Shown here piece by piece: positions 20,410 through 49,180 of a stretch of 64,000 nucleotides of DNA. The DNA lies in the NCBI RefSeq assembly GCF_026151205.1, contig NC_087084.1, forward strand, positions 10,877,453 to 10,941,452, written 5' to 3'. Positions within the stretch are counted from its first letter, which is position 1. Every line of letters begins with the position of its first letter. The position numbers were made by a program, and so were the translations under genes. Source of the DNA: Bolinopsis microptera. Lineage: Eukaryota; Ctenophora; Tentaculata; Lobata; Bolinopsidae. Below the pieces are notes generated by a model. The model was given only the letters and a program-made list of their open reading frames with translations. It did no database searches and was not told the DNA's origin.

Positions 20410-23400
20410 ATGCAGACAATAATAGTATTTATTTTGGTGTTCCAGCAACAATTAGCATTGGTTCTCTCAGGTGAGTCACTACCTTGGTTCGTTTAAATTT
20501 AATTATGGCGGGTTAAAGTTGGCGGTTTTTCGGAAATTTCGCCATAAGTTTACCCACCATTATTTTTACCTGTCATAATAAAACCTGCGGAGTCTATTTT
20601 TGCTGCAGTTTTGACAGGGTATTATATGACATGATAATTTTATCGTTCCTTTCTTAAATTGAAACAAGCGTCATGGACTCAATTTTTAGGTATTCCAACC
20701 AAAACGAGGTGGTTTTATACGGAAAAATCAAATAATTTGGTTGTAATGGACGGGATGATGATAAATCACTGAACAAATTGTGTATCGAGGGGTGTTTGCG
20801 GACTTCGAAAAACCGAAAAAATATTTTCGGCTAGTAATGAACAGGGTAGCATGAAACGTAGAGAAAAGTGGTTTTTAGAAACATTTTGACTTAGAAAATT
20901 TTCGGTCCGAGTCAAATTCGATACGTACCTCCCGTATCGAGAGCTTCCGCTTCCAAGCTCGTGTTGCAAAGGGAGTCCTGCCTTCCGAGATCGCATTACC
21001 AGGGGGAAGCCTCGAGTCCAAAATTGTGTATCCCCCGCGGGCCCCGGCTATAAACGCAACATATGTAGTATAGAGGAAACCCGAACCTTATTACGAACAG
21101 TAGCTCTAGTATTGCTCTTTATCACGTTTTATTATTATGATCCAGTTTTGGCTCCGAGTCAATTATTGTGCAGACAGCAGACTGCTGTCTTCCTATCTAG
21201 TAAAAACGATCCAGTGATAACACTGGGAGACTTTGGGACCGGAAACTGATCCGGCCCCCAAAGAGAGGTCAGATCACGTCACCAATTAGTGTCGTATAAT
21301 TAGTGATGTGATCCATGGATTGAATTTAATTGACATAGAAATGGGCTAGATCTGGGGTAGAGTTCACATGTCAATTCTGTAAATCATAGCTGTAGTCTGT
21401 ACATTAAGAAGTAAACATGATCTGACTGCTCGACTCGTAGATCACATAAGGGACGGGAGCTCTTGCAGCTTGCTAAAGGGGGGTTCTCGTATCAAGGATG
21501 TGAGACGTACGTGTCAAAGGCATGCAAGGGGAGTGAGCCGATCTAGTGTTCTAGGTATAAATATTGGGTGATAGAAGGTAGTAGTATCGCATTCTATCAA
21601 CAGTCATGCCTACCTTCTCCAAGTTCCTCAACGGTTTCAGAGGATGTCAACAGGTGCTTGATTCTGACGGATATATCTACAGCAGCAAGAAATATGATGA
21701 CACCGTCCTCTCCTCTGCTTGGCGTTGCCAGAAGAACAAATCCCTTAAATGTCCTGCTATGTGCTACCTCGCTCTCACAGACAACACTCTTTTCCTTGGA
21801 AGTAAACCACACAACCACGATTCGGATCTGGCTACCCCACAGAGACTCGAACTCCTTACAACGCTCAAGAGGAAGGCTGCAGAACAACCCCTGTCGGCGA
21901 CTCAGAACCTGATATCAGAAGTCCTTGCTGATGCTTCAACAGAAGTAAACCAGACGCTACCTAATATGGAATCCCTTGGAAAAGTCGTCTAACGAGACAG
22001 AGTTTCTGCCTCCGGATCTGCCCAACATACCGAGTCGAAGACTTCTCTTGAATTCGTTCTTCCTCCCAGCTGCACATCTACGAGAAGAGACGAACAATAG
22101 GAATACAAGGAATACAAGGAATACAAGGAATACAAATTTAAAATCTTAAGCTACAATAGTAACTGTTACAGTTAAGATAATAACAATATCATAAGATTTG
22201 AATTTATTATATTAATATAACTTAAACTAAAGTGAAACATAAAGATTTTGACAAAAAATATTTTGTTTACAATCGCCTTGGTAATGCTGTAATGCTTGAG
22301 CCAGGCCACTTTGCACTCGTTGTTGCGCGAAAAGAAACAAAAGCGCTGGTACAGTGATTTTCAGTGTTCATGTACTGGCCAGAGAGTCGACTAATTTCTT
22401 GCGGTTGTTAAAACACGTAGTGGCAAATCTAGCAACGACTCTCGTGAGGTGGACTTGACTTTCATTCGTGATTAATTCAATGATTTCACTGTTGTTGCTG
22501 ATGAATTTGAGCACGTTTGCTCCAGGGATGACAGTGTAAACAGAACAAGATGACGCAGATGGTTTGATTGAATTTGATATGATTGATTGGATCTTGTCTA
22601 GGACTTTTCGCCTCGATGCAGCGTTAAGATCACAATGGTTAAGGAAGTGATCTTCATTCTCAATAATACCAGAACCTAAGACTATATTGCACCAGGAGCA
22701 TATTCGCTCATCGCGAGGAGTTTGATTATATCGGCCAAGTTCAATTTCGAGTCGATGTGCACTGATCCGCAGTCTTGTGATATTAGCACGGTCTGCATAT
22801 TTAATGACACTGTCTAGGTAATACTCTTTGTTAAATTTGGATTTTAGGTCACGATAGAATTCTAATTTCCGAGAAGTGTTGATACAGGACCCCCAATATT
22901 CTCTAAAGCTACTTTTCAAAGTTTTATTAATGACGTGTGGTGTGAATATTTTACTCCCGATGGGTTGTGTTGATTGCGGAGGAATTCGTTTCTTGAAACC
23001 GTTGTGAATAAGAAAGTCCTCTTTTGGTGGTTTTGCGATACTCGGGTTACTTTCGAAAATTGACTTGGAGTGATTGTTTTTGAGTGTGCGGTAGGCTGTG
23101 ACATGATCGGTAGAGAAACATGGGTCTAGCGCGAGGACAGGCTCCAAACCTCTGTACCAGTCCAGTTTTGGAACATTCTTCCACAATTGGGTCCATCATT
23201 GTATCCCGTAAGCTTGAAGGGCTATCAGGATTTATTTTGTAACGAAGTGGGGCTCGAGCGTAAGTTTCATGGAGTACATACATACTTACTGCAGTTTGGT
23301 GATATAATAAAGTAGTCAACAACGCTGGCACCGCTGGTCTGGATACAAGTGAAGTCACCATATGAGTCTCCTAAAGTTCTCCCGTTGAGAATATGGAGTT

Positions 23401-48700: not shown

Positions 48701-49180
48701 ATGTTAACTGTCGGACACGCAAACAAGATGGTGAGCGACAGGAACCGGAAAATGAACCGCAAGATCGCTGTCATTATCTTTACTGACTTTTGCTGTTGGG
48801 TACCCTTCATAATCATATGTGCTCTACACACGCTTGGTATTATAGATGCTAGTCCTTGGTATGCTCTATTTTCAATAGTAGTATTACCTATAAACTCTGT
48901 GATAAATCCTTTATTGTACGACAATACCCTTTCCTTGACAATTAGTAGAACCTTTAGTAGCATACGAGGATCGTCGAATGCATTTATTTCAAAGATCAGC
49001 CGAATAACATCAGATACCCAATTAGATCCAGGTCTTGATAATCAAGAAATGGGTAGGGTTGCAGGATCAAAGCAACAAGGTACTGGTACGGATGCTATTC
49101 AGTCTAGAGGAAAGCCTGGGTGTGTAGGGGATGCTGATGAAGGCGGCATAGACTCCATAGTAGTGGATACTGGTGTTTAA
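42715..49180 (+). CDS. Receptor copy B: galectin-like, SRCR, LDLa repeats, LGR/RXFP-like 7TM
   Basis: Exons: 42715 or 42736 to 42787, 43641-43925, 44052-44276, 45235-45335, 45483-45741, 45969-49180. From the ATG at 42736 they total 4134 bp, exactly 1378 codons, with matching phases at every junction. Order: signal peptide ([18 protein letters not shown]), galectin-like domain, SRCR domain, Cys-rich region with about seven LDLa-type repeats, 7TM, 90-residue tail ending DTGV. The 7TM part most resembles LDLa-bearing leucine-rich-repeat receptors (RXFP/LGR type), but no LRRs are present; their place is taken by galectin-like and SRCR modules. It should sit in the plasma membrane and signal through G proteins. 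Unlike copy A it has no kringles and no frame breaks, provided the 126-bp segment at 43926-44051 is spliced. Confidence 0.82.
42895..43397. mobile_element. 503-bp hairpin-type insertion with 12-bp target duplication
   Basis: ATTATTTTTACC occurs directly before (42883-42894) and after (43398-43409), and once only in the homologous intron of copy A (20569-20580), an empty site. Inside, arms of about 150 bp are inverted repeats, beginning TTGATTTCTCTTGGAGAA and ending CCAAGAGAAATCAA, around a 160-bp centre; some 35 bp after the right arm are unpaired. Confidence 0.85.
43641..44276 (+). CDS. Galectin-like domain of receptor copy B, split by an extra intron
   Basis: Exons 43641-43925 and 44052-44276. 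Translated: [77 protein letters not shown]. One codon shorter than copy A. If the segment between were not removed, the frame would stop right after Trp-Gly. Confidence 0.75.
43926..44051 (+). other. 126-bp intron present in copy B only
   Basis: GTTAAT…CTAATAG, GT-AG ends. Removing it gives ATGGG|GTTACATGG, exactly the uninterrupted sequence of copy A. The junction is flanked by GGTTA on both sides, as after an insertion with 5-bp duplication. The donor and polypyrimidine tract are weak. Confidence 0.65.
44346..45058. mobile_element. Nested transposon insertion absent from copy A
   Basis: Copy A reads GATTTCTAACCATGATTTC without interruption, while copy B has about 710 bp between GATTTCTA and ACCATGATTTC, bounded by TA. 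The left edge TACAGGGTGGGCCAAAAGTC resembles a mariner end. Within it, about 44453-45020, lies an inverted-repeat element with TGGTTCGAGGA ends related to the element at 57960. Confidence 0.7.
45235..45741 (+). CDS. SRCR domain of receptor copy B (exons 45235-45335 and 45483-45741)
   Basis: Same exon lengths (101 and 259 bp) and phases as in copy A. Contains [24 protein letters not shown] sequence: in copy B GTTTGCGG has become GTTTCCGG, so the first SRCR Cys (G-T-V-C) appears as Ser, a possible loss of one disulphide. The rest, [20 protein letters not shown] and VFLSCISNN, is intact. Confidence 0.8.
45969..49180 (+). CDS. LDLa-repeat and 7TM exon of receptor copy B
   Basis: 3212-bp exon. 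The first ~635 residues are Cys-rich, with LDLa-type units ([69 protein letters not shown]; weaker ones between) and N-glycosylation sites. Seven helices follow from [22 protein letters not shown]2 [14 protein letters not shown]3 end LLSIVRMYG (Val-Arg-Met in place of D/E-R-Y), a long second extracellular loop of roughly 100 residues, TM6 [19 protein letters not shown]7 [15 protein letters not shown]. The F-T-D-x-x-C-W and L-P-I-N-S-x-x-N-P-x-L-Y signatures are those of RXFP/LGR receptors. The tail ends T-G-V, a class I PDZ-ligand form. An upstream ATG at 45920 lies in intron and is not the start. Confidence 0.9.

Follow-up and report, generated by a model that had tools for sequence, protein, structure and literature searches.

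The 64,000-bp window analyzed here (C13:10877453-10941452 of Bolinopsis microptera) contains, as judged from its sequence, two receptor genes in tandem, designated copy A (20410-40660) and copy B (42715-49180), which belong to a large family of LGR/RXFP-type class A G protein-coupled receptors (GPCRs) in ctenophores. In the gene models of both copies, a galectin-like domain and an SRCR domain, preceded in copy A by two kringles, are joined to a Cys-rich stalk bearing LDLa repeats and to a seven-transmembrane (7TM) core. This arrangement would be best explained by recognition that is coupled directly to G-protein signalling. We consider the architecture, together with a role of the family as recognition receptors, to be probable; the doubt that we retain arises mostly from function and from the integrity of the two copies in the window. 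The genome searched comprised 264.65 Mb in 232 contigs. One ionotropic glutamate receptor encoded in it had Mnemiopsis leidyi ML032222a as its best match among 272 PDB sequences at E ≤ 1e-20; with a second such receptor, kainate receptors of vertebrate type scored better than that entry.

At the gene-model level, copy B is composed of six GT..AG-spliced exons with compatible splice phases, which encode 1384 amino acids without an internal stop in the order signal peptide, galectin-like domain, SRCR, LDLa stalk and 7TM. The initial annotation of this DNA had united these modules in one frame on the basis of exon phases and splice sites, and that part holds; its figure of exactly 1378 codons corresponds to a start at the second Met (42736), whereas 1384 residues are counted from the first. 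The features of copy B are the following.

42192-42412, plus strand: region 5' of exon 1, 80.6% identical (blastn) to 19600-19813 of copy A; likely a shared 5' region or promoter
42715-42787, plus strand: exon 1, start codon and putative signal peptide (hydrophobic N-terminus, judged by eye)
43641-43925, plus strand: exon 2, first half of the galectin-like domain (gene model, Pfam)
43926-44051, plus strand: 126-bp dispersed repeat within the galectin-like exon
44052-44276, plus strand: exon 3, second half of the galectin-like domain (gene model, Pfam)
45235-45335, plus strand: exon 4, first SRCR exon (gene model, Pfam)
45483-45741, plus strand: exon 5, second SRCR exon, with one Cys replaced by Ser (gene model, Pfam, comparison)
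45969-49180, plus strand: exon 6, Cys-rich stalk with LDLa repeats, 7TM core and cytoplasmic tail

Neither copy A nor the paralogues at C12 9.25 Mb and C5 5.99 Mb carry the insert at 43926-44051, which recurs at 80-83% identity in at least 39 other genomic places (genome search, best 40 of 249 candidates scored). It was ruled out as an old intron, being a dispersed repeat that copy A and two paralogues lack. When the insert is left unspliced, the reading frame ends at once; because it begins with GT and ends with AG, its excision as a new intron would preserve the frame. For copy B to be intact, the insert must be spliced out in this way. With a repeat lying inside a coding exon, the locus might also exemplify an intron that was born when a transposon inserted.

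For copy A, the same order plus two kringles had been predicted. This was borne out by a model of eleven exons, in which every intron is GT..AG, modules meet at phase-1 borders, and the order is signal peptide, kringle, kringle, galectin-like domain, SRCR and stalk/LDLa/7TM; the last exon carries a frame shift. The features of copy A are the following.

20410-20470, plus strand: exon 1, start codon and putative signal peptide (by eye)
22371-32178, minus strand: open reading frames (ORFs) in intron 1, some LINE-like (Pfam)
32275-32404, 32820-32867 and 33044-33129, plus strand: kringle 1, three exons (Pfam)
33737-33866, 34075-34122 and 34739-34824, plus strand: kringle 2, three exons (Pfam)
35938-36450, plus strand: galectin-like domain, a single unbroken exon (gene model, Pfam)
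36684-36784 and 36924-37182, plus strand: SRCR, two exons (gene model, Pfam)
37450-40660, plus strand: last exon (stalk, LDLa and 7TM), frame-shifted

The LINE-like ORFs on the minus strand of the 11.8-kb intron 1 include a reverse transcriptase (29128-30213) and an endonuclease (30775-32178).

The identity of the modules was assessed with Pfam profiles run on the predicted proteins. Kringle matched two stretches of copy A (150.1 bits; cut-off 34.3), SRCR scored 31.2 in copy B and 38.8 in copy A (cut-off 26.1), and both Ldl_recept_a (38.7, three stretches) and 7tm_1 (41.3) were over their cut-offs. These assignments of the initial annotation were confirmed; its fifth, Gal-bind_lectin, stayed below the cut-off. 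At E ≤ 1, the Pfam galectin profile matched three of the five members of the galectin-like domain. When a profile of all five was compared with PDB at E ≤ 10, 35 of its 36 matches were galectins, with a best E of only 0.03. The sugar-binding motif of galectins is H-x-N-P-R followed by W. All five rows read H-L-D-F-R, with Asp in place of the Asn of that motif, and each has a Trp further on, but not in one alignment column. We regard the galectin identity of this domain as marginal, the sugar-binding motif being kept only in part.

The strongest support for the architecture comes from a distant paralogue at C12 9.25 Mb with the same order and phases. There, a kringle (three exons), a galectin-like domain, an SRCR domain (two exons) and an LDLa-7TM exon lie on one strand. 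Identity to copy B is 60% over the last exon and 48-73% in the galectin and SRCR pieces. Nonsynonymous differences between the two loci were found at 101 of 397 sites in the galectin exons and 73 of 279 in the SRCR exons (about 0.26 per site), and synonymous differences at 74 of 96 and 56 of 72 sites, respectively (about 0.77). Because synonymous sites are saturated and nonsynonymous changes are far fewer, the galectin and SRCR exons have been held as protein; with synonymous divergence (dS) saturated in galectin, SRCR and ectodomain, no omega is given for this comparison. No lesions were seen, as far as read, in the galectin, SRCR and last exons of this member. The predicted module order was thus sustained both by the two gene models and by this paralogue.

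Other loci display parts of the same order. The member at C5 5.99 Mb retains galectin-like domain, SRCR and LDLa-7TM exon (hereafter, the cassette), with no kringle match within the 10 kb examined upstream. At C5 5.67 Mb, an SRCR precedes the cassette by 2.1 kb. A galectin-like match 23 kb upstream (C5 5.70), which contains one stop, and a kringle match 49 kb upstream are candidate parts of this gene; all three share the strand of the cassette. Decayed kringle, galectin-like and 7TM remains occur in that order within about 4.4 kb near C5 7.13 Mb. Genome-wide, nine galectin-like matches represented seven places, copy B and C5 7.13 each accounting for two half matches. In six of these places (A, B, C12 9.25, C5 5.99, C5 5.70 and C5 7.13), a cassette, or what is left of one, follows downstream on the same strand. 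For the seventh, at C7 14.88 Mb, no 7TM was present close downstream among the matches listed.

The core was examined with a profile (A3) of 25 family 7TM regions. Its ten best rows in PDB were LHCGR, RXFP1, FSHR, TSHR and 8w1z, which we take to be FSHR-1 of C. elegans, at E values from 8.5e-21 to 1e-11 (best 60 of 103 at E ≤ 0.001); the next row, SSTR3 (1.3e-6), was five orders of magnitude behind. With all ten best rows LGR-type and at E ≤ 1e-11, the earlier assignment of the core is upheld, and by these profile comparisons the core is a class A 7TM of the LGR/RXFP type. N1.50, D2.50, R3.50, C6.47, W6.48, P6.50, N7.49, P7.50 and Y7.53, by the position numbers assigned here, were kept in all 25 rows. 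The core also has an FYGxDGVC loop in the second extracellular loop (ECL2), presumably resembling the loops of LGR/RXFP receptors. Membership among adhesion GPCRs was ruled out, as neither GPS nor 7tm_2 matched the 1384-residue copy B protein at E ≤ 1 in Pfam and only 7tm_1 was found. As to the proposed link with LGR/RXFP receptors, which carry LDLa and/or LRR ectodomains, the LDLa repeats and the core type agree with it and the LRRs do not: no LRR family was matched in Pfam at E ≤ 1 in the copy B protein or at E ≤ 0.5 in its 630-residue stalk.

Family searches scored only the best candidates, so that all counts are lower bounds. The core of copy B returned at least 98 matches, most of them in open frames of about 1000-1300 codons. 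A second query gave at least 114, bringing the union to at least 127 places, and a third gave at least 113, including nine further places (counted by eye). Among the 127 places, 96 had an open frame of at least 900 codons with no stop in the match and eight had a stop. Many pairs among 30 loci compared were 90-97% identical in DNA, also across chromosomes, indicating that the family has grown in part recently. Over 3.5 kb, the cassettes at C5 5.67 Mb and C12 9.25 Mb are 99.8% identical, which reflects either an assembly problem or a duplication between chromosomes that is very recent.

In 14 paralogues, the sequence 5' of the cassette was read. In six, a module over its Pfam cut-off was found upstream on the cassette strand, as follows.

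C12 9.25: kringle and SRCR
C5 5.99: SRCR
C5 12.26: kringle 13.5 kb upstream, the match spanning one stop
C11 12.39: partial galectin (23.0 bits) and LDLa (26.2)
C7 16.55: SRCR and TSP1 (by eye, five SRCR and three TSP1)
C12 13.76: Sushi (25.8)

Three more had a module below cut-off, namely C9 13.82 (kringle, 29.7), C3 7.83 (F5/8-like, 21.9) and C2 9.23 (SRCR, 25.3). Also below their cut-offs, and not claimed, were PLAT-like (15.5 bits) and WSC-like (17.9) matches, an FTP-like label given by eye (F5_F8_type_C_2, 21.9 in one member) and a ShK-like exon of the C12 paralogue (15.0). A phase-1 GT was located near 12 of 13 module ends, several being weak as donors and the PLAT-like end having none. 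On the cassette side, ten of eleven other members (the eleventh being L057) had a phase-1 ..CAG acceptor within 5 bases of where the stalk codons begin, four of them in members that show no front-end module. Since other AGs occur close to some of these acceptors, those chosen constitute our best reading.

Rates of change were compared for ectodomain and core at 25 loci, seven of which had an in-frame stop in the upstream 1.5 kb and were trimmed there. Omega was higher in the ectodomain than in the 7TM in all six group means (0.27-0.43 versus 0.14-0.24) and in 35 of 38 pairs.

In the gene models of this family, the cassette is usually one large exon that contains the Cys-rich, LDLa-bearing stalk and the 7TM core and is entered via a phase-1 acceptor. 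Upstream phase-1 exon modules supply the front end, which in the subfamily of the window consists of kringle(s), galectin-like domain and SRCR. In the mechanism that we propose, a signal peptide from exon 1 would direct the protein to the cell surface, where glycans or proteins of microbes, prey, mucus or other cells may be bound as ligands by the distal modules. This would move the stalk, and its last LDLa repeats, which abut TM1, may then serve as a tethered activator in the manner of the LDLa of RXFP1/2, after which the 7TM core would signal via a G protein. The family would expand by segmental duplication and swap its front end by exon shuffling, with the ectodomain evolving faster than the core. 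We infer the recognition step from the types of module, their exchange and the faster ectodomain; the relay through the LDLa stalk is suggested by RXFP, and G-protein coupling by the class A residues that are kept. The inference of the initial annotation, an innate-recognition-type ectodomain wired directly to a G-protein-coupled core, is thus supported in part. A broader proposition, which we put forward tentatively and consider rather doubtful, is that ctenophores possess a recognition system in which a phase-1 port connects interchangeable modules (kringle, galectin-like, SRCR, TSP1 and Sushi, perhaps also F5/8-like) to a cassette of more than 100 copies, and hence to G-protein signalling, in a role that Toll-like or immunoreceptor pathways would otherwise have.

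Several observations weigh against the architecture and recognition-receptor reading. Gal-bind_lectin reached only 21.0 in copy B and 15.6 in copy A, under the Pfam cut-off of 22.1, and two of the five galectin-like members gave no Pfam galectin match at E ≤ 1. Position 3.49 of the core is non-acidic (V, A, T or I) in all 25 rows of profile A3; with the acidic residue before R3.50 missing throughout, coupling may be unusual, and basal activity may be altered. Five of the 14 paralogues (C13 8.50, C6 10.25, C4 16.16, C13 3.62 and C7 0.80) showed no upstream module by eye, and the longer open frames upstream of these five contained no extracellular module at E ≤ 0.1 in Pfam, a search that covered part of the frames, excluded the L054 repeat frames and could miss short exons. 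Association with the 98 cassettes was sparse among the matches listed: at a distance of up to 10 kb, SRCR lay upstream and on the same strand at five, downstream at one and on the opposite strand at none, galectin was upstream at one and downstream at one, and for kringle within 20 kb the counts were 2 and 0. In these counts split exons score low, and the window's own copies are not among them. In 3 of the 38 pairs omega was higher in the 7TM, all three belonging to a single group whose 7TM regions have diverged very little. The remaining points concern the window. Copy B depends on the splicing out of a repeat whose splice sites look weak. The last exon of copy A is 1 base shorter than that of copy B at about 37662, as a result of which its model runs out of frame inside the stalk. 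Finally, omega between the SRCR domains of copies A and B was 0.76, a value based on 16 differences that points to weak constraint.

The rival that fares best is that the ancestral design is real and both window copies are decaying pseudogenes. We regard this as quite possible, though not as the likelier outcome, and it is compatible with our preferred explanation for the family. The frame shift of copy A, the repeat in the galectin exon of copy B, the weak SRCR constraint and the eight family matches with an internal stop all speak for it, as do the decayed relative at C5 7.13 Mb and the loss of an SRCR Cys in copy B, where Ser occupies a position that is Cys in copy A and in the C12 paralogue. 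Given these lesions, the two window copies are not the cleanest examples of the design, and at least one of them may be decaying. The initial annotation mentioned neither the frame shift of copy A nor the repeat nature of the insert in copy B. Long frames are nevertheless open in the last exon of both copies, of 1109 codons from stop to stop in copy B and of 1001 codons (37655-40660) in copy A, where this frame differs from that of the upstream model. Omega between the copies was 0.41 in the last exon and 0.40 in the galectin-like domain. The one-base difference in copy A may stem either from an error in the assembly or from genuine decay. A published B. microptera assembly was made with wtdbg (PMC10232365), which makes single-base errors plausible if it is the same assembly. 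dS between the copies falls from 0.193 in the galectin-like domain to 0.057 in SRCR and 0.034 in the last exon, a gradient that we read as gene conversion, which has probably homogenized the cassette half of the two copies.

Somewhat less probable, and in our view unlikely, is that the LGR/RXFP-type proteins of this family are ordinary receptors for peptide or protein hormones, in which the extra modules act as spacers or matrix anchors and not as the surface for recognition. The core is indeed closest to LHCGR, RXFP1, FSHR and TSHR, and comb jellies possess cystine-knot hormones and LRR-type LGRs (PMC4079206). Against this stand the missing match to LRRs, the usual hormone-binding part of LGRs, the size of the family (more than 100 matches, whose front ends vary), and the faster evolution of the ectodomain.

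Quite improbable is a third rival, under which the kringle, galectin-like and SRCR exons form a separate gene for a secreted protein, or belong to transcripts that end before the cassette, with the LDLa-7TM exon having a 5' exon of its own. The frame shift of copy A would leave just such a soluble product, with kringle, galectin-like domain and SRCR; in five of the 14 sampled paralogues no upstream module was found, and at C12 about 8.7 kb separate the kringle from the galectin exon that follows it. Against this rival, order and phases are kept at the C12 locus at saturated synonymous divergence, and six of the seven galectin-like places are upstream of a cassette. Moreover, the first Met of the last exon is codon 289 in copy B (codon 178 in the C12 9.25-Mb paralogue); with no Met before it, this exon of copy B most likely needs the upstream exons. 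The duplication that gave copies A and B also left them with common sequence from the 5' region through the 3' end. A chimeric assembly of unrelated loci is very improbable, since the same order is found at several loci whose sequences have diverged, even if the 99.8% identity between C5 5.67 and C12 9.25 Mb could reflect assembly trouble.

Other features lie outside the two gene models. Upstream of copy A, an SRCR exon follows mucin-like EPTTV repeats (13609-14331); this could be either a gene of its own or a front end that was lost. An arylsulfatase-type open frame (Pfam Sulfatase and Sulfatase_C) is located at 2949-4616, and an ORF with six near-identical TSP1 repeats at 52065-53375, downstream of copy B on the same strand. 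Two similar 120-residue ORFs (MLFGL..LLLVPSSSSS) at 55817-56179 and 57561-57923 are perhaps a duplicated small secreted protein; the second gave no Pfam match. Long repeat arrays at 5576-6369 and 16297-18484 are open in several frames and could pass for genes. Elsewhere, a 4-kb stop-free frame of tandem YYYIIILL repeats (L054:306-4328) precedes a family member on C13.

The known role of LGR/RXFP receptors, with their LRR ectodomains, is to read hormones. If the preferred reading of recognition coupled to G-protein signalling is correct, a ctenophore family has kept the core, dropped the LRRs and come to swap recognition modules, so that the same signalling engine would have been rewired for other input. 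It has been argued that ctenophores are the sister group of all other animals, and such receptors may represent an unusual animal way to sense other cells or microbes.

In the open-licence literature (text without figures), no paper describing the order kringle, galectin, SRCR, LDLa and 7TM was found, in agreement with the initial annotation, to which no described family with this order was known. Among known systems, the LDLa of RXFP1 has been described as essential for activation of that receptor (PMC4837482). RXFP1 and RXFP2 (type C1 LGRs) resemble the window family in combining an LGR-type class A 7TM with LDLa in the ectodomain. They differ from it in having one N-terminal LDLa, whereas the window family has several, the last adjoining TM1, no LRR match, and galectin-like, SRCR and kringle modules in addition. 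GRL101 carries LRRs; the window family differs from GRL101-type LGRs in giving no LRR match and in its other extra modules. GRL101-type LGRs with multiple LDLa repeats occur in molluscs and cnidarians and share with the family those repeats and the LGR-type 7TM (PMC4079206). The type A/B LGRs of comb jellies, like the sponge receptors described with them, have 7-26 LRRs; those of comb jellies come from the same phylum and belong to the same receptor group, and the part of that source describing them makes no mention of SRCR, galectin or kringle (PMC4079206). SRCR repeats occur on GPCRs of sponges as they do here, but those are adhesion GPCRs and the receptors of the window are of the rhodopsin class (PMC4302439). 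In choanoflagellates, LRR and LDLa are listed for rhodopsin-class GPCRs, and Kringle is one of the domains listed for adhesion GPCRs (PMC12716839). In Mnemiopsis, SRCR genes are expanded and show unusual domain mixes, including LDL, a likeness to the present family; upon re-exposure to Vibrio, 12 SRCR genes changed, eight of them upward (PMC11797021). The figure legend of that study lists 7TM only in the C-type-lectin panel, and the text examined describes no SRCR-LDLa-7TM receptor (PMC11797021). A set of 538 full-length GPCRs has been reported for M. leidyi (PMC9525235), and GPCR clades have radiated independently in ctenophores (PMC13231562); as far as these sources describe them, that set or those clades may include the family found in the window.

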